DNA of 33,270 bases from Bacillota bacterium (GTDB lineage Bacteria > Bacillota > Dethiobacteria > DTU022 > UBA8154), in the NCBI GenBank assembly GCA_012728375.1, contig JAAYFF010000052.1:1-33270 (forward strand). Direction: 5' to 3'. The translations under genes and the position numbers were made by a program. The notes beneath the pieces were generated by a model that ran no database searches, had not been told where the DNA came from, and saw only the letters and a list, made by a program, of their open reading frames with translations. Shown here in pieces: positions 286 to 33,270 of this stretch; positions within the stretch are counted from its first letter, which is position 1, and every line of letters begins with the position of its first letter.

Positions 286-323
286 AAAAACTTAAACGGG
301 AAAGCCGCCCGGCCTTCCCGTTT
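286..323 (-). terminator. Rho-independent terminator after the surface-protein operon
   Basis: Arms AAACGGGAA and TTCCCGTTT (294-302 and 315-323) pair perfectly. Inside them a G-U wobble (minus-strand reading) and a GCC/GGC pair enclose a 4-base loop. The minus-strand tail reads AAGTTTTT. The wobble exists only in the minus-strand transcript, which favours termination of the gene ending at 373. Confidence 0.8.
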
Positions 324-372
324 AATCTCAACCTTGGGAATGTATCGGTTTACATTTTTGCTATGGCTGCTG

Positions 373-2650: not shown

Positions 2651-3541
2651 TTAAAAGCGTATTATATCAATGCTCCTGCTTGCCTCATCCCACAAAGTAT
2701 CAGCTCCCAGGATAGCGCTGATAAAGCGTAGGGGTACAAAGGTCGTGCCCTTTACTATAACCGCGGCACAGTCAAGCTCTTCTTCAACCCCGTTCACCAG
2801 CGCGGAAGGAGTATTGATAGTAAGCAAAATAACCTGCCGGTTATCTTCGATCCTGACCTGATTTGTCTCCTGCAGCCAGGATACCTTTGCCCCGAAGTGC
2901 TCGCCGACAAACCGGACCGGGACCATGGTCCGCCCTTCCTTAAGAAAAGGTGCGGCGTTAAGGGTCACCTGGCTTCCGTTCACCAGTGCTTCGGCGCTGC
3001 CGATCTGCAGATGTATTTTACCTGCAAGATCTCCGCTTGCCGACTCCTCTCCCTTAACCCTGAAGGGAAGAAAACTTCCGTCAGCCCTTATCAGCTCTAC
3101 TTTAGTAAAATGTAACGTCAGGGGCTGCTCCTTTTCCCCCAGAAAGGTTATCTTAAGTAAAAGTCCGTCCGCGCCCTTTTTGCCTGCTCCAACAGGATCA
3201 ACCCAGGCAATTTTAATAACCCCCGCTTCCTTCAGGTTCGACTCTAACAAAACACCTTCCGGCAGCTCCTCCGCAGAGACGTCCTTGGCATTAAAAAGCG
3301 CGGGGTCATAAGCAAGCTCCAGATGCCCCGCAGCCAGGTCTCCCGGATTGTTGTAAAGGAATATTCCGGCTGTAACCGAATTGTGCCCCCTTTCCTCTAA
3401 AACCGCTGTTTCGATCTCCACAGGATTTTCAGCACAATTCCCGGCCTCCGGAAATGCTGCCGCGGGAAAGAATAATACGAAGGCCAAAATTAGGCGAAGC
3501 ATCCTGCTGCTGCGCACACCTTTTATTTTTTTTGCCTGCAT
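2651..3541 (-). CDS. Exported cohesin/stalk-domain protein
   Basis: A 296-residue exported protein. I place the start at the ATG at 3541 because a perfect GGAGGTGA (3547-3554) lies five bases upstream. A GTG three codons earlier is embedded in that ribosome site and would have none of its own. A signal peptide ends near the NCAEN segment (about residue 38). A cohesin-type beta-sandwich follows (about 40-175: GHLELAYDPALF, then a LLLKITFLG strand). Two stalk (copper amine oxidase N-terminal-like) repeats complete the protein, with KEGRTMVPVRFVGEHFGA and VKGTTFVPLRFISAILGA. The ribosome site overlaps the stop of the upstream cohesin gene, indicating translational coupling. The combination suggests a wall- or stalk-borne receptor for a dockerin partner; the partner is inferred. 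Confidence 0.85.
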   Translation of the reverse strand: MQAKKIKGVRSSRMLRLILAFVLFFPAAAFPEAGNCAENPVEIETAVLEERGHNSVTAGIFLYNNPGDLAAGHLELAYDPALFNAKDVSAEELPEGVLLESNLKEAGVIKIAWVDPVGAGKKGADGLLLKITFLGEKEQPLTLHFTKVELIRADGSFLPFRVKGEESASGDLAGKIHLQIGSAEALVNGSQVTLNAAPFLKEGRTMVPVRFVGEHFGAKVSWLQETNQVRIEDNRQVILLTINTPSALVNGVEEELDCAAVIVKGTTFVPLRFISAILGADTLWDEASRSIDIIRF

Positions 3542-3546
3542 CCAGC

Positions 3547-4731
3547 TCACCTCCGTCCCGGCATTTTATAAACAGTAAGAAAATATTTATCTGAAGACTT
3601 CCCGGAGGAGTTCACATAAAATGAGATCTCATTTGTACCGGAAGTCAGGGGAATTGATTTTACAATAGAGGGGGAATGCCTGGTATTGTTGATATAAAGG
3701 GTATCCCCCGAGGCATTTAAACTGACCAGTAAATTTATCGAGTTGATACTGCTGTCTATAACCATCGTATAGGGCATATTCTCAGGGCCAAGAATCACTT
3801 CCATGCTTCCCTGGGTTATCCTCAAACTTTTAAATGTAACCCGGTCGTAGTACCCGTAAGCGCTCCCGGAGCCATCGTAAAGATAGGGCACCTGGTAATT
3901 CTCATCAATAACCCAAAGGGTAAAGGCTTTTTCCGCCCACTCGCCATTATTGGTCACCCTGAGGGTAAAATCATATTTCCCGACGCTTCCCGGCGTGCCG
4001 GAAATGTTCCCGCTGCTGCCCAGGGTCAACCCCGGCGGCAGGCTTCCGCTTTTTCTTTCCCAGGTATAGTTGTTGCCCGTTCCGCCGGTTGCTGCAAGTG
4101 AACAGCTGTAATAGGTGCCCCTATAGGCATAAGGAAGGGTAGATGCTGTGCTGATGCTCACATTGCCCGATGAAGACCCTCCTGAGGGAGAGCCGTTTCC
4201 ACCCGAAGGAGATGAAGACCCTCCTGAGGGAGAGCCGCTTCCGCCCGTAGAAATTGTTCCGGAAACATTATTGCTGCTAATTTTATCGGCAAAAGTATTA
4301 ACGAGCACCAGATCTTTCAGCTCAAGGGTTGTGCTCCCGGACGATTTGACCTGAAAAGCAATGCGGCACAGGACACCGTTTTCCTTAATTTCATCAAAAC
4401 TGCCCCCTACAACCCTGATCCTGCCGTTTGCAGCATCTTTCAAGTTTTTCGTAAATATCCCTGGCGGCAGCACGTTCCCGGCAGTCACATCGATGGCCTC
4501 CACAATCTGCGGATCGTATTCGAGGTCAAACTGAAACCCGGCTGCCCCGGAGGGATTTGTAATGCTCACAGCTACCTCCACCGTGCTGTTGACTTTGGCA
4601 TCGCTGATAGAGTCAATGCTGACAGTTGCCTGGGCTTGAACTGCCCGGGGAAGCAAAAATCCCTGAAGAAAAAAAAGTGCCAGGATGAAAAGAATAATTT
4701 GCAATGTCCTGCGGTGCAGTGTTTCAGCCAT
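3547..4731 (-). CDS. Exported cohesin-domain protein with Ser/Gly linker and Ig-like domain
   Basis: A 394-residue exported protein and the first gene of the surface operon. Residues 1-35 are a signal peptide (long hydrophobic core, AVQAQA). Residues 36-160 form a cohesin module (AGFQFDLEYDPQIVEAIDV, then a GRIRVVGG strand and LCRIAFQV). Residues 163-189 are a Gly/Ser/Pro linker encoded by a short direct repeat. Residues 191-273 look like a putative Ig (He_PIG) domain with LPPGLTLGSSGNISGTPGS. The C-terminal 110 residues form a cadherin-like beta-sandwich-type domain (tentative). The ATG has GGAGGTGA four bases upstream. A sigma-D-type promoter candidate lies 90 bases upstream. No transmembrane anchor or LPXTG motif is visible, so attachment to the cell is unexplained. 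Confidence 0.85.
   Translation of the reverse strand: MAETLHRRTLQIILFILALFFLQGFLLPRAVQAQATVSIDSISDAKVNSTVEVAVSITNPSGAAGFQFDLEYDPQIVEAIDVTAGNVLPPGIFTKNLKDAANGRIRVVGGSFDEIKENGVLCRIAFQVKSSGSTTLELKDLVLVNTFADKISSNNVSGTISTGGSGSPSGGSSSPSGGNGSPSGGSSSGNVSISTASTLPYAYRGTYYSCSLAATGGTGNNYTWERKSGSLPPGLTLGSSGNISGTPGSVGKYDFTLRVTNNGEWAEKAFTLWVIDENYQVPYLYDGSGSAYGYYDRVTFKSLRITQGSMEVILGPENMPYTMVIDSSINSINLLVSLNASGDTLYINNTRHSPSIVKSIPLTSGTNEISFYVNSSGKSSDKYFLTVYKMPGRR
4169..4237. repeat. 27-bp direct repeat encoding the Ser/Gly/Pro linker
   Basis: A 27-base sequence at 4169-4195 recurs exactly at 4211-4237, a 42-base (14-codon) period. It encodes the repeated GGSSS/SPSGG-type linker of the cohesin-domain protein. 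Such in-frame repeats can change copy number by slippage and so alter linker length. Confidence 0.8.
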
Positions 4732-4818
4732 TTACTCACCTCCTTCTACGCACCGTTCATGAAAGACCTTAACTTCTTCCGCATTTTTAAAGCATGCGGC
4801 AGCATTTCCCTAAAATAT

Positions 4819-4845
4819 TTATCGGCTGATTGTAAGGCTGGTAAA
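4819..4845 (-). promoter_or_regulatory. Sigma-D (FliA)-type promoter candidate for the surface-protein operon
   Basis: On the minus strand GCCGATAA (4819-4826) matches the sigma-28 -10 consensus exactly. TTTA (4842-4845) lies 15 bases upstream; the consensus there is TAAA, so the -35 element is imperfect. The predicted start is near 4812, about 80 bases before the first surface gene. The same TTTA-N15-GCCGATAAATA arrangement occurs before flgF. Confidence 0.5.
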
Positions 4846-4849
4846 GCCC

Positions 4850-4881
4850 GGAAGCGCAAAAAAAGGCACGCAAAGCGCTCC
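4850..4881. other. Hairpin in the leader between mfd and the surface operon
   Basis: GGAAGCGC (4850-4857) can pair with GCGCTCC (4875-4881), with one bulged base and a 17-base loop containing an A-tract. No U-tract follows on either strand, so it is not a standard terminator. It lies within the 299-base gap 4732-5030, upstream of the sigma-D-type site. Apart from promoter candidates, I see nothing else in that gap. Confidence 0.35.
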
Positions 4882-5003
4882 TTTCTAAATTGTCTCAATT
4901 TCATAACATTTGCGGGTAGACAGAAATTTTAAAATATTTATTAACCATACCCGTTTAAGAACGAAATAAGGGAGCGGGAAAAAACTAATCCACAGCAGCG
5001 GAA

Positions 5004-5034
5004 ATTATACCGGAAAACTTGATTTAAGTTTCAA
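5004..5034 (-). promoter_or_regulatory. Possible sigma-A promoter at the end of mfd
   Basis: TATAAT (5004-5009, minus strand) is a perfect -10 hexamer. TTGAAA (5029-5034) overlaps the mfd stop codon and lies 19 bases upstream, a longer spacer than usual. If used, it would give the surface operon a leader of about 265 bases. Confidence 0.3.
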
Positions 5035-17001: not shown

Positions 17002-17214
17002 CTATCTCTCCTTCCCGTGTTCCCGGCTGAGCAGGTGCATAACGCTGCTGGCAATTTTATCCAGCGGAGCAATTTTATCGGCGGCACCTTTTTTTATTGC
17101 CGCCAGGGGCATACTGCTGATAACTGCAGTGGAGGGGTCCTGAACGATTGTTCTACCGCCATTTCTTTTTATCTGCGCCATTCCTTCAGCAATTTCCTCC
17201 CACATCCTGTCCAA
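17002..17214 (-). pseudogene. cheB: CheB methylesterase remnant (C-terminal fragment)
   Basis: Only about the last 60 residues of CheB are present (GMAQIKRNGGRTIVQD..., SSMPLAAIKKGAADKIAPL); a complete CheB has about 350. The receiver domain and the catalytic Ser and His regions are absent, and the usual GMGxDGAxG catalytic-Asp motif is replaced by MWEEIAEG. The first ten residues of this frame come from DNA that, in another frame, encodes the CheD C-terminus. The TTG or ATG start here is therefore fortuitous, and the gene is the right half of a deletion junction at about 17187-17192. The TAG stop lies just before cheR. It may be translated, but it cannot be an active methylesterase. Confidence 0.85.
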
Positions 17215-21266: not shown

Positions 21267-23681
21267 TTAATACTTGGGACGGACTATCTCCGTAATTTTA
21301 ACCCCGAACTGACCGTTCACCAGAACCACCTCTCCCGTGGCTACCAGCCGTTCATGGGCAAACAGCTCCACAGGTTCGCCTAAAAACCGGTTTAGGCCGA
21401 TAATTTCTCCCGGCAGCAGGGAAAATACTCTTTTCAACGGCATTCTGGCCTTGCCCAGTACTGCCCGGATCTCCAGGGGAATATCTTTAATAAGGTTTAG
21501 CTTGGCGTACTCCTCATCCGATAGCTGTTTGGCTGCTGCCCCTCCGGGAAATGACACAACCGCCGCCTGTTCTTCCCCGGCAAAAATAGGAACTTCCTCT
21601 TCTTCGCGGGCAGGTTCATCAGGAGGCGCAGGTGTTTCGTCAACCTCGCTTACTTCATGGTCTTGGACCGGCTCCGGATGCTCCGGCACCTCTTGACCGG
21701 TAAAGGCAGAAAGAAGAAAAGAGGTAATCTCACTGGCAAAATCCAGAGGTATCAGCTGCAAAAGAGTGCTGTCAATGAGGCCTTCCACCTCCATCCGGAA
21801 AGCAACCTGTACCAGGGGCATATTCTCATCAAAGTGCAAAGTGCCCAGTTGTGATTCATCGTTAAGCTTCGTATAAAGGATCTCCGGTGGGGAAATATCG
21901 ATCATGCGGTCCAAAAAATCGGACATAGCCGTAGCAGCAGAACCCATCATCTGGTTCATGGCCTCACTGATCGCGGAAATTTCCAGTTCATTGAGTTCCT
22001 GCGGCCGCTCGGGGGGTTCCATCCCCATCATCAAACCGATGATGACCAGTGCATCCTCTTGATTAATAATGAGGATATTATTTCCGTCCAATCCCTTAAC
22101 ATAATTGACCATAACAACAAGGCAGGGAACCGGATAGCTTAAGCTGACCTCCTTCATGGTTGTCAGGGTTACCTGCGGCGCGGTGATATTAACTTTTTTG
22201 TTGATTAACTCGGATAGAGCCGTAGCGGAAGCGCCGAGGGAAATATTTCCCACTTCCGCCAGGGCATCTTTTTGCATTTCGCTTAAGCTTTCTCCGGAAC
22301 CTTCCGGTGCGGGAGCAACTGGAGCAGCGTCATAGGCAGGCAAGCCAAAGTCCTGGATCTCCCCGTCGTCCCCTGCCATATTCTGTAAAAGAAAGGAGGA
22401 AATTTCCTTGGCAAATGGGAAAGGAATTATTTGAATCAGCCGGCTCTGCAGAAGATCGCCTATAGTTAGCTGAAAAGATATTTGCAAAACCGGTTCCGAA
22501 GGATCTATTTGGTTAACCTGTATTATTTCTTTGTCAAGATCGGCACGAAGTAAACGGGGCGGGGAAATATCGATCTTGCGGTCTAAAAATTGGGACATAG
22601 CCGTAGCAGCAGAACCCATCATCTGGTTCATGGCCTCGCTGACCGCGCTCATTTCCATCTCCCCAACTGTCCGGGGGGCATCCTCAGCGGGAAGCCCGAG
22701 CATTAAACCGGCAATCAGCGCTGCATCTTCTTCTTTGAGGATAAGAATACTTTCTCCCTGCAGCCCCTCCTGGTAATTAATCCTGGCAATAACGCTGGAA
22801 AGCGGGTACTGTTCCCCAAGTTTTTCCATCGTCGTCAGGGAAAGCTTTGGAGTTGTAATCTGCACCCGCTGATCGACCAGCTGGGATAGAGCTGTTGCTG
22901 ATGATCCCAGGGATATGTTTCCGATTTCAGCCAGGGTATCTTTTTCCAGTTCGTTTAAAAAATCATCCAGTGAAGGTAAATTTGCCGCCGGAGCGGCAAA
23001 GTCTCCCTCCGGATTTAAAAGTGCTTCCAATTCCGGAGGCGGGCCCTCTTTCGCTGAATCATTTTGAACAGTGGACTCCTCATCGTCTATATCTATCCCC
23101 AACCCTTTCATCAACGGCGTTAAAATATTCTGAAGAAAAAAGCGGGGAAAAAGCTGTATTAGATTTATGCTCTCATCCGGTTCAATCTCCAGAAGAAAAG
23201 TAAAAATTACCCAGCGCTCCTCCTCCGCAAACCCAAGGGCACCGAAATCCCTGTCCGCTGTAGCAAGGAGTTCTACTGACGTGTCCGGTACCTGGGCAAT
23301 ACCAAGAAAGGTTGCCAGAGAAGCCGCATAAGAGCCCATGAGAATGCTCATGGCTTCGCCAACGGCTTCCATCCCTGGAACACCCGCATCTTGAGCTGTA
23401 CTTTCCCTTTCCTCCGGCATTAAACCGGCCAGAAAGGCAGCATCCCGCTCCTTAAGCAAAAGGAAGCAGGTCCCTTCAAGGCTGTTCTTGAAATCGACAC
23501 GCGTCAGAACCGCACCACTATTGTAGCGTTCCTGCAAAGCCGCAGTTGTCATTTCCTCAATTTCCGGAGGGGAGAGGCGGGCAACCCTCTTCAGCAAACT
23601 GAAAAGAGCCGTTACAGCAGAGCCCATGGAGACATTGCTAAGTTCCAATAAGACATCTTTTTCCACGGGCTTTAATTCCAT
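21267..23681 (-). CDS. FliY-like switch protein with three CheC domains and a FliN domain
   Basis: An 804-residue fusion; B. subtilis FliY (one CheC-like region plus FliN) has about 380. Three CheC modules lie at about 1-200, 240-440 and 465-665, and a SpoA/FliN domain at 725-804 (LNLIKDIPLEI..., PGEIIGLNRFLGEPVEL, GQFGVKITEIV). Phosphatase motifs (D/S-x3-E-x2-N): module 1 D9-E13-N16, with a defective second site E105-E109-S112 (Asn replaced by Ser); module 2 D248-E252-N255 and S345-E349-N352; module 3 D472-E476-N479 and S569-E573-N576. Pro/Glu-rich linkers separate the modules. It should sit in the C-ring through its FliN domain and hydrolyse CheY-P there. The ATG has GGAGGAA upstream. A separate FliN is encoded next to it. 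Confidence 0.92.
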   Translation of the reverse strand: MELKPVEKDVLLELSNVSMGSAVTALFSLLKRVARLSPPEIEEMTTAALQERYNSGAVLTRVDFKNSLEGTCFLLLKERDAAFLAGLMPEERESTAQDAGVPGMEAVGEAMSILMGSYAASLATFLGIAQVPDTSVELLATADRDFGALGFAEEERWVIFTFLLEIEPDESINLIQLFPRFFLQNILTPLMKGLGIDIDDEESTVQNDSAKEGPPPELEALLNPEGDFAAPAANLPSLDDFLNELEKDTLAEIGNISLGSSATALSQLVDQRVQITTPKLSLTTMEKLGEQYPLSSVIARINYQEGLQGESILILKEEDAALIAGLMLGLPAEDAPRTVGEMEMSAVSEAMNQMMGSAATAMSQFLDRKIDISPPRLLRADLDKEIIQVNQIDPSEPVLQISFQLTIGDLLQSRLIQIIPFPFAKEISSFLLQNMAGDDGEIQDFGLPAYDAAPVAPAPEGSGESLSEMQKDALAEVGNISLGASATALSELINKKVNITAPQVTLTTMKEVSLSYPVPCLVVMVNYVKGLDGNNILIINQEDALVIIGLMMGMEPPERPQELNELEISAISEAMNQMMGSAATAMSDFLDRMIDISPPEILYTKLNDESQLGTLHFDENMPLVQVAFRMEVEGLIDSTLLQLIPLDFASEITSFLLSAFTGQEVPEHPEPVQDHEVSEVDETPAPPDEPAREEEEVPIFAGEEQAAVVSFPGGAAAKQLSDEEYAKLNLIKDIPLEIRAVLGKARMPLKRVFSLLPGEIIGLNRFLGEPVELFAHERLVATGEVVLVNGQFGVKITEIVRPKY
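21921..22637. repeat. 45-bp exact direct repeat within the CheC-CheC-FliN gene
   Basis: The 45 bases at 21921-21965 recur without mismatch at 22593-22637, 672 bases (224 codons) apart. They encode the second phosphatase helix (EAMNQMMGSAATAMS) of modules 3 and 2. The surrounding modules are much less alike at the DNA level, so strong constraint or local gene conversion is implied. Confidence 0.9.
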
Positions 23682-25276: not shown

Positions 25277-25388
25277 CTACTACCTACTACCTACTATCCA
25301 CTATCTACTACCTACTACCTACTATCCACTATCTACTACCTACTATCCACTATCTACTACCTACTACCTACTTTCTACTTTACACTTT
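25277..25388. repeat. Heptanucleotide tandem repeat array (about 16 units) between flgG and fliM
   Basis: About 16 units of 7 bp, mainly CTACTAC, CTACTAT and CCACTAT, run from the flgG stop codon (25387-25389) towards fliM. The units nearest flgG are diverged (CTACTTT, ACACTTT). They belong to the same family as the CTACCYA array at 10517-10586: same period, same TAG-containing minus strand, same position against a stop codon. Confidence 0.95.
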
Positions 25389-26226
25389 ACGACTGCATAT
25401 TCAGGGTGAGAGCCCATAGTTCATCTGCCGTAGTCAACGTGCGGGAAGAAGACTGCAGCGCCCTTTGTCCCCTAATAAGCCCAGTTATTTCCTGTGCAAG
25501 ATCCACGTTGGAATTTTCCAGATAATATTGCTGCAAAGTGCCAAAACCGTTTTCCCCGGGTATACCTGCTGCAGGCGGTCCGCTTGTTTCCGACGGAACA
25601 AAAAGGTTTTCGCCTGCGTTTAAAAGGCTCTCAGGATTAATAAAGCGGTAAAGTTGAATTTCCCCCAGCTTAATCATTCCGCCGGCAAGCTCTTCTTCAT
25701 CCCTGAAGAGGATTTCTCCCCCTCCCTCCGGATAAGGGCGGGCAAGGACAGCCCCGTCAGGAGATATGCTCAAGGTAGATAAATCAATTTCATTTTCTCG
25801 CTCCCGCAAATTTAAAACCGGGTCAAGGCGAATTCCTCCGGGAAGGGTCAGATTGCCCTCTGCATCCAGGGAAAAATTCCCGCCCCTTGTATAGGCATAA
25901 CTTCCATCCGGGCGAATAACGCGGAAAAAACCTTCCCCCATGATCGCCAGGTCCAGGGACCTCCCCGTATAAGCCGGGCTGCCCTGTTCCAGAAGATGTG
26001 CAGTACTAACTACAGCAGTGCCCCTTCCGCTCCGGGGAGGTACCGCGGGGTTGCCCGCCCTGGGAAGACGCCTTTGGGCAATCTCCCTGTAGGTAAGTTC
26101 CTGAAAGGAAACCTGTTTCCCTTTAAAGGCAACGGTATTGACATTGGCAATATTGTGGGCGGTTACATCCAGCAACTGCTGATGAGCTCGTATCCCCGAA
26201 TAGCACTGGCCAATGGCTTTCAGCAT
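25387..26226 (-). CDS. flgG: Flagellar basal-body rod protein, FlgG/FlhP-like
   Basis: A 279-residue rod/hook-family protein. The N-terminus has the family motif LDVTAHNIANVNTVAFKGK; the central part carries SLDLAIMGEGFFRV and AYTRGGNFSLDAEGNL; the C-terminus has LENSNVDLAQEITGLIRGQRALQ. It would form part of the distal rod, exported by the flagellar apparatus without a signal peptide. The ATG has AGGAGG nine bases upstream. It lies 36 bases after a paralogue; the tandem pair corresponds to flhO-flhP in Bacillus. FlgG versus FlgF assignment is not certain. Confidence 0.85.
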   Translation of the reverse strand: MLKAIGQCYSGIRAHQQLLDVTAHNIANVNTVAFKGKQVSFQELTYREIAQRRLPRAGNPAVPPRSGRGTAVVSTAHLLEQGSPAYTGRSLDLAIMGEGFFRVIRPDGSYAYTRGGNFSLDAEGNLTLPGGIRLDPVLNLRERENEIDLSTLSISPDGAVLARPYPEGGGEILFRDEEELAGGMIKLGEIQLYRFINPESLLNAGENLFVPSETSGPPAAGIPGENGFGTLQQYYLENSNVDLAQEITGLIRGQRALQSSSRTLTTADELWALTLNMQS

Positions 26227-26262
26227 CTTTGCCTGCCTCCTGTTTTTTCATTTAATTGAGAG

Positions 26263-27024
26263 TTAACTGAGAGTACCCAGATCATTTGCCGCTCTGGAAA
26301 GCATCCGATCATAAACCTGGGCAATTTTCTGGGCTGCTTCATAACAACGCCGCACCTTTACCAGGTCGGTCATCTGCCTGGTCAAATCAGCATTGGATTC
26401 TTCAAGGGCGCCCTGAAAAATCGTCCCGGCATCAGCGACCTGGTAAGCCGCATCCTCGGGGGCTCTAAAAAGGTTGTAACCGTCTTTCCACAGCAGTTCC
26501 TCATTGTCAAAAACCACAACCAAAATCCGGTCCACCAGCTGACCATCCTGGTAAATATTCCCCGACCTGTCGATCTGTGGATCTTCCATACCGAGCGTTA
26601 TTGCTCCCCCTTCCCCGAGGACCGGAAAGCCTTGGGCATTAACCAGAGTTCCGTCCGCGCTTAATTGCAGGTGCCCATCCCTGGTATAAGCAGGACCCTG
26701 AGGGGTATCCACAACAAAAAAACCCCGTTCCTGAAGAGCGATATCCAGAGGCCTCCCGGTAAGCCTAAGCGCGCCGGGAAGATGAATAACAACCGTTTCT
26801 TCAACAGCGATATTTTCTGCGGCAATACCGATAGGTCCGTAAAGGGCCGCCCCTTTCCCCCCCGTTTTTTCCGTCCTGTAAAGGAGCACCTCGGGAAAAG
26901 TTCTGAGCACAACTTCGCTCCTTTTATAGCCTGGCGTATTAAGATTAGAAAGATTATTGCCGATGTTTTCTAAGCGCACCTGGTTTACCAGCATGGAACC
27001 GGCCGCGTTATAAAGCCCTCTCAT
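26263..27024 (-). CDS. flgF: Flagellar basal-body rod protein, FlgF/FlhO-like
   Basis: A 253-residue rod/hook-family protein. It begins MRGLYNAAGSML and has the family motif NIGNNLSNLNTPGYKRSEV, then RPLDIALQERGFFVVDTPQG with AYTRDGHLQL, and ends with LEESNADLTRQMTDLVKVRRCYEAAQKI. The RTFPEVLL segment is reminiscent of FlhO. The ATG has AGGTGAG upstream. A sigma-D-type promoter candidate lies 40 bases upstream (27064-27090), as expected for this late gene pair. Exact rod position is inferred. Confidence 0.85.
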   Translation of the reverse strand: MRGLYNAAGSMLVNQVRLENIGNNLSNLNTPGYKRSEVVLRTFPEVLLYRTEKTGGKGAALYGPIGIAAENIAVEETVVIHLPGALRLTGRPLDIALQERGFFVVDTPQGPAYTRDGHLQLSADGTLVNAQGFPVLGEGGAITLGMEDPQIDRSGNIYQDGQLVDRILVVVFDNEELLWKDGYNLFRAPEDAAYQVADAGTIFQGALEESNADLTRQMTDLVKVRRCYEAAQKIAQVYDRMLSRAANDLGTLS

Positions 27025-27063: not shown

Positions 27064-27090
27064 TTATCGGCACTATTTATTGAAGTTAAA
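27064..27090 (-). promoter_or_regulatory. Sigma-D (FliA)-type promoter candidate for flgF-flgG
   Basis: On the minus strand a perfect GCCGATAA (27064-27071) has TTTA (27087-27090) 15 bases upstream, where TAAA is the consensus. The predicted start is about 33 bases before the flgF ATG. It lies in the 83-base gap after the swrB-like gene, inside a long operon, and would give extra FliA-dependent expression of the genes downstream. Confidence 0.55.
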
Positions 27091-27606: not shown

Positions 27607-28374
27607 TTATGAATTTAAAAACCCGCTTTTTTGCAAGTTATCCCTCAAAAGGCGCAAAGTCCGGGCATGGATCTGCGAAACACGGGCTGTAGATACCTTT
27701 AAAACCCGGCCTATCTCTTTGAGAGTCAGCTCTTCTTTATAATAAAGGGCCAGAACCAGCTTCTCCCTTTCGGGCAACTCTTCAATAGCCCGCGCCAGAG
27801 CATCTCTCCACTCCTGTTTTTCAATCTTTTCCTCCGGGCCTATAAACGGCCCCCCGTCGGCGGGGATAATGTCTTCCCGTTGTTCTCCGGAATGGCCTGA
27901 GGGAGGGAAAAGAAGAGACTCCAGAGAAACCAGAGAATAGCTGTTCAGCTGGGAATATACCTGTTCAACAGCTTCCGCGGACCACTGCAGTTCAGCTGCC
28001 ACTTCCGCAATGGACGGCTCCCGGCCCAAACGGTGGCTTAATTTCTGTTCGGTCTCCTGGAGATCCCGAAGCCTTTTGTAAAGTGAACGGGGAGACCAGC
28101 TCAGTTTTCTCAGCTCATCCAGCATAGCTCCGCGGATACGCCAGGTGGCAAAAGTCTTAAATCCTGCTTCAAAGGTGGGATTATACCTCTCCAGGGCTTC
28201 CAGCAAGCCGATCACTCCGCTGGCAATAAGGTCGTCTTCATCCACCTGAGGCGGCAGGCCCAAGGAAAGCCGCCCCGCCACCTGTTTCACCAGTGGAAGG
28301 TGCTCCTGAATAAGAATATCCCTCGCCTCTTTATCCCTGGTTTGGAGATATTTTTGCCAGAGTTCCTCCGTCAA
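27607..28374 (-). CDS. fliA: Flagellar/motility sigma factor FliA (sigma-D)
   Basis: A 255-residue sigma-28 factor that directs transcription of late flagellar and chemotaxis genes. Visible: region 2 (DDLIASGVIGLLEALERYN, then FATWRIRGAMLDELR), region 3 (LGREPSIAEVAAELQW) and region 4 (LPEREKLVLALYYKEELTLK, with the SQIHARTLRLLR helix). The open frame extends 47 codons upstream, overlapping flhG. I place the start at the TTG at 28374 because AGGAGGAG lies five bases before it and the length then matches SigD. Two GCCGATAA promoter candidates in this window are likely targets. No anti-sigma factor (FlgM) is present here. Confidence 0.94.
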   Translation of the reverse strand: MTEELWQKYLQTRDKEARDILIQEHLPLVKQVAGRLSLGLPPQVDEDDLIASGVIGLLEALERYNPTFEAGFKTFATWRIRGAMLDELRKLSWSPRSLYKRLRDLQETEQKLSHRLGREPSIAEVAAELQWSAEAVEQVYSQLNSYSLVSLESLLFPPSGHSGEQREDIIPADGGPFIGPEEKIEKQEWRDALARAIEELPEREKLVLALYYKEELTLKEIGRVLKVSTARVSQIHARTLRLLRDNLQKSGFLNS

Positions 28375-28411
28375 TCTAGCTCCTCCTAACACATTTTTCT
28401 CCCTTGACCCC

Positions 28412-29302
28412 TTAGCCCCCGCTGCCTGTATTCCAAATGGTAAAAAGACGGCGTAAAAATCTCTCTCCTTTTTTCGCGGCGGGCCCTTCCTCTCCATAAA
28501 GAAGGCGGCGGGCAATTTCCCTGGTCAACATAGTTGCGCGGGAACGGGGAAATTGAAGAGCATAAGGATAACAGTTCAGAACAGCTCTATGCACATATTG
28601 ATCAAATTCAATACTCCCCAGGTAGTTAATATCAATACTTAAAAAATTGCGGCAAACATTGCTGATGCGCCGGTAAATAGCCTCCCCGTCCCTGGCATGG
28701 CGAACCATATTGATCACTATGTTGACCTTAGGTTTGAGGCGGTAATTGTTCACAACCTTAATAATCCCGTAAGCATTAGTTATCGCTGTCGGTTCAGGAG
28801 TAGTTACCAGGACCAGATCATCTGCAGAAGCCACAAAGCTAAGAACATCCCGGGAAAGACCGGCAGCACAATCCACAAGGAGTATGTTTTCCTCCCGGTC
28901 CAGGTATGAAAGCCTGGAAATGAGCTTTTCCCGCTGCTGGCTATCCAGATTGACGATATCAGGCAGACATGACCCCCCGGGCAGCACTTCGACGTTGTGC
29001 GGACCCTGCAGCAGGACGTCCTGCAAATCTTTTTGCCCCTGAATAACATCAATCAGAGTATAAACCGGTTTTAAATTCAAAAGAATATCTGTATTTGCCA
29101 TCCCCAAATCCGTATCGAGGATGACAATCTTATGGCCGAGCTGACCCATGATGATCGCCATATTGACAACGAGATTGGTTTTCCCGACGCCGCCTTTGCC
29201 GCTAGCAACGGTGATAACTCGTGAACCCTTTCCTTTTGCGGCAACCTTTGTTGAGTTGCGCTTCCGGATTATTGCCCGCAACCGCTCAGCTTGATCAGCC
29301 AT
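28412..29302 (-). CDS. flhG: Flagellar number regulator FlhG (MinD-like ATPase)
   Basis: A 296-residue MinD/ParA-family ATPase that controls flagellar number and position and activates FlhF. The N-terminal DQAERLR (3-9) is the FlhF-activating motif. The deviant Walker A SGKGGVGKT ends at 42; ILDTDLGMANTD and LLVDCAAGLSRDVL are the other nucleotide motifs. A basic amphipathic C-terminus (LLYGEEGPAAKKGERFLRRLF) could bind membrane. Its ATG shares one base with the flhF stop (TGATG), so translation is coupled. Confidence 0.95.
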   Translation of the reverse strand: MADQAERLRAIIRKRNSTKVAAKGKGSRVITVASGKGGVGKTNLVVNMAIIMGQLGHKIVILDTDLGMANTDILLNLKPVYTLIDVIQGQKDLQDVLLQGPHNVEVLPGGSCLPDIVNLDSQQREKLISRLSYLDREENILLVDCAAGLSRDVLSFVASADDLVLVTTPEPTAITNAYGIIKVVNNYRLKPKVNIVINMVRHARDGEAIYRRISNVCRNFLSIDINYLGSIEFDQYVHRAVLNCYPYALQFPRSRATMLTREIARRLLYGEEGPAAKKGERFLRRLFTIWNTGSGG

Positions 29303-32715: not shown

Positions 32716-33270
32716 TTGAATCTAAAACAATCTGTCAGGAAAAATGGCAGAGTTTATCTTTCTATTGAAAAAAGTTATCGTGATAAGGCAGGTAAGCCCA
32801 GGGCTAAAACTGTTCAATCGTTAGGTTATCTAGATGTTTTGGAGAAGAAATACGATGACCCTATTGCCCATTTTAAAGAAGTTGCGCGCAAGATGACCGA
32901 AGATGAAAACTTAAAACGAAAGGTAACCTTGTCCATCAATATGGACGAAAAGCTTTCCCCAGAAACAGATGACAGGAAAAACTTCGGCTATGCCGCGATC
33001 TTGAAGATCTACCATGAACTTGGATTGCATCGCTTTTTCAACAACCGGGCGCGCAATGAAAGCTTCAAGTTCAACACCAATTCCATTATGATACTGCTTG
33101 TCATCTCCAGGCTGCTATCGCCCGGCTCCAAAAAGAAGGCCTTCGAGGAGAAGGGCCGCTATTTTGAGCGCTTCAATTTTTCACTGGCAGATGTGTACCG
33201 CGCTCTTTCACACTATGCGAAGATCGCCAAAGGGCTCCAGCGGTTTCTGCATGAAAGTATCACAGAAAAA
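32716..33270 (+). mobile_element. IS1634-type transposase, N-terminal part (cut by window edge)
   Basis: An open frame of 185 codons runs to the window end. The TTG start has a strong GGAGGTGAC five bases upstream. The protein begins MNLKQSVRKNGRVYLSIEKS and continues with KPRAKTVQSLGYLD, FGYAAILKIYHELGLHRFF and SIMILLVISRLLSPGSKKKA. This pattern is typical of the N-terminal part of IS1634-family (IS4 superfamily) transposases; the DDE catalytic residues lie beyond the window. It is the only long plus-strand gene here and is adjacent to the promoter end of flhA. Terminal inverted repeats could not be defined. Confidence 0.8.

Follow-up and report, generated by a model that had tools for sequence, protein, structure and literature searches.

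The cohesin operon and its leader

The window, meaning the whole stretch of 33,270 nucleotides analyzed in this study, contains four minus-strand genes (4731 to 373) between a leader that follows mfd and a strong intrinsic terminator with a 15-pair stem (292-325, minus strand), which was located by terminator scan at the end of the operon. The first gene (3547-4731) encodes cohesin A, a protein of 394 amino acids with an N-terminus that resembles a signal peptide by eye and with Cohesin, He_PIG and Cadherin-like domains in Pfam. It overlaps by four bases the second gene (2651-3550), which encodes a second cohesin protein of 299 amino acids with Pfam Cohesin and Cu_amine_oxidN1 domains. Gene 3 (1609-2586) encodes 325 amino acids with Cu_amine_oxidN1 and Big_2 domains (Pfam), and gene 4 (373-1527) encodes 384 amino acids with a putatively cohesin-like N-terminal half and a weak type I dockerin match by profile.

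This operon (cohesin operon A) had been labeled a cohesin/dockerin operon in an earlier reading made from the sequence only. The cohesin half of the label stands, since two of the proteins scored 53.8 and 26.0 bits against Cohesin PF00963 (cut-off 24.1). In addition, residues 33-165 adopt a cohesin fold in the structure model of cohesin A (mean pLDDT 70), with a Z score of 19.3 over 130 residues and an rmsd of 1.7. The dockerin half must be qualified. Gene 4 scored 16.3 bits against Dockerin type I PF00404 (E 0.012) and did not reach the cut-off of 22.9, and a profile of two orthologues matched a solved dockerin with an E value of 0.0022. By these profile matches the gene 4 product is dockerin-like, not a filed PF00404 member. 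A structure model of this 384-residue product was unusable (pLDDT 42). Domain scans of the four proteins identified no glycoside hydrolase or other enzyme domain.

The leader of the operon occupies 299 bp of the minus strand between mfd, which ends at 5031, and the first cohesin gene. The sequence-only reading placed TTTA-N15-GCCGATAA at 4819-4845 (minus strand), and the motif was present there when the bases were rechecked. Its -35 element is TTTA (4842-4845) and its -10 element is GCCGATAA (4826-4819), which matches the GCCGATAW of sigma-28 promoters. The spacer is 15 bases, as in two related genomes of the same genus (G003 and G004) and in agreement with the approximately 15 bases of sigma-28 promoters. 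Transcription is predicted to start at 4811-4813, about 6 bp past the -10 octamer, based on the E. coli aer promoter (PMC2859248). The ATG of cohesin A (4731) is located 87 bp downstream of the site and is preceded by a ribosome-binding site, AAGGAGG (4739-4745). Between mfd and the promoter, RNA folding identified a terminator-like hairpin followed by seven T (4858-4884); the folding energy of -10.1 kcal/mol applies to a 41-base stretch that also includes a second small hairpin. The hairpin at 4858-4884 is absent from the list that a simple terminator scanner produced for the window. A hairpin with ten T is found at the same place in the G004 leader and none at the corresponding place in the G003 leader. 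The window scan with Rfam gave no riboswitch match in the 299-bp leader.

Exact copies of TTTA-N15-GCCGATAA occur in the 2,378,699-base genome only in the cohesin leader and before flgF. At least two such sites with at most one mismatch were found in 2 of 100 shuffled windows. With a promoter matrix built from the flagellar promoters of other genomes, the expected number of scores of at least 17.7 was 0.09 per resampled window, or approximately 0.0002 for a single-strand scan of a 300-bp leader. The octamer GCCGATAA by itself is common, with six copies in the window, and GCCGATAW was counted 315 times in the genome versus 187 times for the reversed control. Thus, the -10 element by itself proves little. 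A copy of GCCGATAA before cheR (17075-17082) was considered as a third site and rejected, as it has no good -35 element and scores 6.4.

Flagellar genes and the flgF promoter

The window also encodes the motility sigma factor FliA (27607-28515, minus strand), a FliA/WhiG family member that scored 247.8 bits against TIGR02479 (cut-off 189.6). Profiles identified flgF and flgG (25387-27024, minus strand), which encode rod/hook-type proteins, and flhA, flhF and chemotaxis genes were read by eye. FlgM is encoded elsewhere in the genome. An 804-residue FliY/CheC-like protein (21267-23681, minus strand) appears by eye to contain three similar repeats in one chain, and is presumably longer than usual for FliY.

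The sequence-only reading claimed the same promoter arrangement before flgF. It is indeed present at 27064-27090 (minus strand), 39 bp upstream of flgF, where motif match and matrix identify a sigma-D-type promoter of flgF-flgG that can be read as TTTA-N15-GCCGATAA or as TTAA-N14-GCCGATAA. The further claim that the two sites share TTTA is correct as to the letters, but the flgF sequence TTTAAC scores best as TTAA-N14, a reading that the cohesin sequence TTTACC cannot take.

The family promoter matrix

The matrix was constructed from 22 flagellar promoters, of flagellin (7), flgF (13) and flaG (2), and no cohesin gene was included. The -10 element was used to choose 19 of these sites; the other three (G004 flagellin and flaG of our genome and G003) were chosen by the TWWA pattern, so their -35 elements were preselected. 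Among 18 flgF leaders, 12 contained an exact GCCGATAW and two (G003 and G013) contained it with one mismatch, that of G013 being kept out of the matrix; GCCGATAW was missing from four, including the G008 leader, of which just 26 upstream bases are present. A flagellin site of G017 (L101) with TAAC at -35 was not counted as a match, and the promoter of a G020 flagellin gene (C217) was left out because it adjoins a cohesin operon.

The -35 positions of the 22 promoters are T (21 of 22), T or A (14 and 8), A or T (19 and 3) and A (21 of 22), the commonest form is TTAA, and the spacing from -35 to GCCGATA is 15 bases. When sites from our genome were removed from the matrix and both strands of the window were scored, the best positions were flgF (21.5) and the cohesin leader (17.8), followed by a score of 14.0. 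Likewise, of 28 window genes only flgF and cohesin A had strong sites in their leaders, and the best leader score of the other 26 was 6.4. The cohesin score of 17.8 is lower than all but one of the leave-one-out scores of the 22 training sites (median 22.1, minimum 14.0).

All three flagellar promoters with T at the third -35 position can be read as TTAA-N14, whereas the TTTA of cohesin operon A cannot be read as TTAA in any register, which sets it apart from all 22 flagellar promoters. Judged by this comparison, TTTA is the weak part of the cohesin A site, and the -35 of the family is TTAA or TAAA. In the aer promoter of E. coli, the equivalent A-to-T change at -35 is described as lowering activity from 223 to 26 units (PMC2859248), so the cohesin A promoter is possibly weak or dependent on assistance. 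The CTTTA and GAAG that are kept around the site could reflect such weakness or need for help, or common descent.

The motif in the genome and its relatives

The pattern TWWA-N15-GCCGATAW matched our genome eight times, versus four times for the reversed control. Three of the eight matches lie inside long genes on the opposite strand. The other five are intergenic, and all five precede flagellar or cohesin genes, which is the enrichment that the sequence-only reading had proposed to look for in a genome scan. The genes are flagellin (contig C23), flaG-fliD-fliS (C3), flgFG, a flagellin-like gene (C39) and the cohesin operon. The C3 operon was identified by matches to FlaG (E 1e-25), FliD_C (3e-46) and FliS (3e-40). 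The same promoter type thus precedes flagellin, flaG-fliD-fliS and flgFG in one genome, as in a late flagellar class. Over five genomes, the pattern matched 60 times versus 33 for the reversed pattern. Of the 23 matches that no long frame overlaps, 20 are followed by flagellar or cohesin-module genes; the remaining three are G003:C60, G004:C11 and a gene in G006 named AgrB-like by eye.

The motif was found at only 8 of 16 strong flagellin loci, at none of the six methyl-accepting chemotaxis protein (MCP) loci scanned in our genome and at none of the four flgM leaders scanned. The canonical TAAA-N15-GCCGATAW was rejected as a search pattern. Its one perfect match in the genome lies inside a gene on the opposite strand, which indicates that the B. 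subtilis consensus alone would miss the regulon, and with one mismatch it was uninformative (74 matches versus 55 for the control).

Two of the flagellin-type products are unusual in size or sequence. The C23 flagellin is large, approximately 785 residues (L205:1839-4193, plus strand), and open frames of flagellins in congeners reach 1693 residues. The C39 gene (L258:2019-2591, minus strand) has a perfect TTAA-N15-GCCGATAA upstream (G000:C39:61147-61173, minus strand) and encodes 190 residues without a significant Pfam match, the last 54 of which resemble the flagellin C-terminus (BLASTP E 0.001). This resemblance suggests that the product could be a minor filament protein of the flagellin type.

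Kinship in the genome collection places the window in the genus of G004. In orthologous cohesin A leaders, the site is exact in three of four species and one base off in the fourth (G020). The leaders of our genome, G004 and G003 have a mean column identity of 55%, and within them CTTTA, the TTTA-N15 arrangement and the 13-base block GCCGATAAATATT are invariant; CCGATAAATA is invariant in all four. The corresponding sequences in G020 are TCCGATAAATA, the -10 element TCCGATAA and the block TCCGATAAATACT with TTAA-N15. The gene directly upstream of the G020 cohesin operon encodes a flagellin and has a TTAA-N15-GCCGATAT promoter of its own. This flagellin gene (L065:3141-3998, minus strand; G020:C217) has a stop before its C-terminal part and is either a decaying gene or an assembly error.

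The motif is also found before cohesin B, a paralogue, in five of seven genomes (G000, which is our genome, G006, G018, G020 and G022). Cohesin B of G003 and of G004 is without the motif, although in G004 a decayed form, GTCGATAG, is present. Stand-alone homologues of gene 3 have the motif in G006, G018, G020 and G022, with scores from 18.3 to 20.8, and the one in G008 has GTCGATAA with a score of 14.3. The G018 and G022 leaders are nearly identical and so do not count as independent. In the leaders scanned, gene-3 copies inside operon A have no motif of their own, and it was not found at distant gene-3 homologues in G017, G001 and G020:C162. The gene-3 scan covered 12 of 16 homologue rows. 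The G003 copy abuts the end of its contig, and a site with one mismatch, located 373 bp upstream of the G014 homologue, was not counted. Among 21 other cohesin rows none reached a score of 14. The cohesin scan covered 30 of 39 rows and omitted both window rows, four repeats of an open frame or operon, G006:C60, G022:C364 and G009:C129. Two weak, distant cohesin homologues beyond the family (G069 and G085) also have no motif. Across these leaders, the motif follows this group of surface genes, whichever gene comes first.

The second cohesin operon

Cohesin B of our genome is encoded on contig C31 and is followed by an LRR-transglutaminase gene. Positions 1-141 of the window are identical to the end of this contig (G000:C31:1-141), an identity that most likely reflects an overlap in the assembly graph, with the two contigs as neighbors. 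In the orientation implied by the overlap, the C31 operon faces operon A, and the same face-to-face arrangement is found in G004. The cohesin B leader has GCCGATAA 36 bp before the start and TAAA at 16 bases. Should the contigs be truly adjacent, FliA-type promoters would bracket a convergent pair of surface operons. The protein encoded behind cohesin B (L204:788-3004, minus strand) has leucine-rich repeats and a transglutaminase core. It is predicted from gene order to share the FliA-type promoter of cohesin B, and it is possibly a cross-linking partner of the surface proteins.

Discussion

The site at 4819-4845 is very probably a promoter of sigma D (FliA, sigma-28) for a four-gene operon of the late flagellar class, and the cohesin B operon likewise has one; both are candidates identified by sequence. 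Sigma-D control of the operon, as the sequence-only reading had claimed, is supported by the specificity of the motif and by its conservation at flagellar and cohesin genes in relatives, from which, together with the gene context, we infer recognition by FliA and the timing of expression. RNA polymerase with FliA (27607-28515) would start about 6 bp after GCCGATAA, just past the mfd terminator, and the transcript would encode secreted cohesin, Cu_amine_oxidN1/Ig-like and dockerin-like proteins and end at 325-292. The operon would in this way join flagellin, flaG-fliD-fliS and flgFG in the late flagellar class. The second operon, with cohesin B and the LRR-transglutaminase, would have its own FliA-type promoter and face operon A. 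Since relatives have kept the flagellar-type signal, flagella and the surface coat are probably made together. The proteins may then assemble into a scaffold of cohesins and dockerins at the surface of motile cells, with a conceivable role in adhesion, motility or flagellar association.

Two other ways of reading the leader were considered. The first is that a housekeeping sigma-A promoter drives the operon, either TTGAAA-N19-TATAAT (5004-5034, minus strand) or TTTACC-N16-GATAAA, and that the FliA-like motif is incidental. The leader does contain a perfect TATAAT (5009-5004), and TTTACC-N16-GATAAA, which overlaps the motif, is by eye a possible weak sigma-A match. However, the TATAAT region was not seen in the aligned leaders of two congeners, its spacing from TTGAAA is 19 bp, and the terminator-like hairpin lies between it and the cohesin A gene. 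In addition, several genera retain the GCC of GCCGATAA upstream of cohesin A, of cohesin B and of gene 3, for which sigma A offers no explanation. For these reasons, control by sigma A is improbable.

The second, which we also regard as improbable, invokes either another factor of the sigma-28 type or FliA assisted by a dedicated activator, acting on a subclass of surface promoters (CTTTA-N15-GCCGATAAATA-N3/4-GAAG) distinct from the TTAA class of flagellar genes. In its favor, CTTTA with C, T or G as the next base is common to three of the cohesin A leaders and to the leaders of stand-alone gene 3 in G018, G020 and G022, most of them with ATAAATA and GAAG downstream, and TTTA without TTAA one base on occurs in none of the 22 flagellar promoters. 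However, cohesin B and the G006 gene-3 leader have ordinary TTAA or TAAA forms, and the common flanks may only reflect descent of one promoter.

A further proposal is that the convergent operons, bracketed by FliA-type promoters, encode an extracellular scaffold of the flagellar program, either a filament decoration or tether or a coat of the motile phase, with CTTTA-N15-GCCGATAAATA-N3/4-GAAG as its own promoter subclass tuned apart from flagellin. We consider this proposal speculative and rather unlikely.

The predicted control is similar to several known systems. First, sigma D of Bacillus subtilis is described as reading TAAA-N15-GCCGATAT and also serving autolysins (PMC5200910). Its regulon shares with ours the -10 element, the 15-base spacer, the flagellin target and non-flagellar cell-surface genes. 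In contrast to that description, the -35 element here is mostly TTAA or TAAA, with TTTA in the cohesin leaders, the surface genes encode cohesin proteins and not autolysins, and our six MCP loci have no motif. Secondly, expression of the adhesin gene cbpA and of CD0514 is reported to fall in a sigD mutant of Clostridioides difficile, in which surface proteins are also coupled to the motility sigma factor and SigD promoters are of the TAAA...CG type (PMC3865298). SigD regulation is measured there and predicted here, and the set of genes described in that report has no cohesin/dockerin genes. Third, syntrophic sulfate reducers and ANME archaea are described as having non-cellulosomal adhesins with cohesin and dockerin domains (PMC10553843). 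Like the proteins studied here, these adhesins are secreted and putatively adhesive and combine cohesin and dockerin with Ig-like and cadherin domains, but in that description they are not linked to a motility sigma factor. Also, Cu_amine_oxidN1 proteins are listed among surface proteins of Desulfotomaculum reducens (PMC4137172). Lastly, cellulosome scaffoldins share the cohesin fold, with the best Z score (19.3) to a Clostridium acetobutylicum cohesin, and the type I dockerin-like repeat; unlike scaffoldins, the four proteins carry Ig-like, cadherin-like and Cu_amine_oxidN1 domains and no glycoside hydrolase domain.

Cohesin-dockerin proteins outside cellulosomes are already known, and to our knowledge there is little to indicate when cells produce them or for what purpose. 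The predicted link to the motility sigma factor would give a condition for their expression, namely in motile cells and, if FlgM acts as usual, after hook completion. It would also widen the known set of surface proteins coupled to flagella. In the open-access literature searched, no title dealt with cohesin proteins under sigma-D control or with the sigma D of Dethiobacter, and we regard the operons as a well-supported predicted addition to a known kind of regulon. In addition, the matrix can serve as a model of sigma-D promoters in the Dethiobacter family and help to annotate further genes.

At the far end of the window, an open frame (32716-33270, plus strand) that is transposase-like by eye runs off the end of the sequence and is perhaps the reason that the contig ends there.
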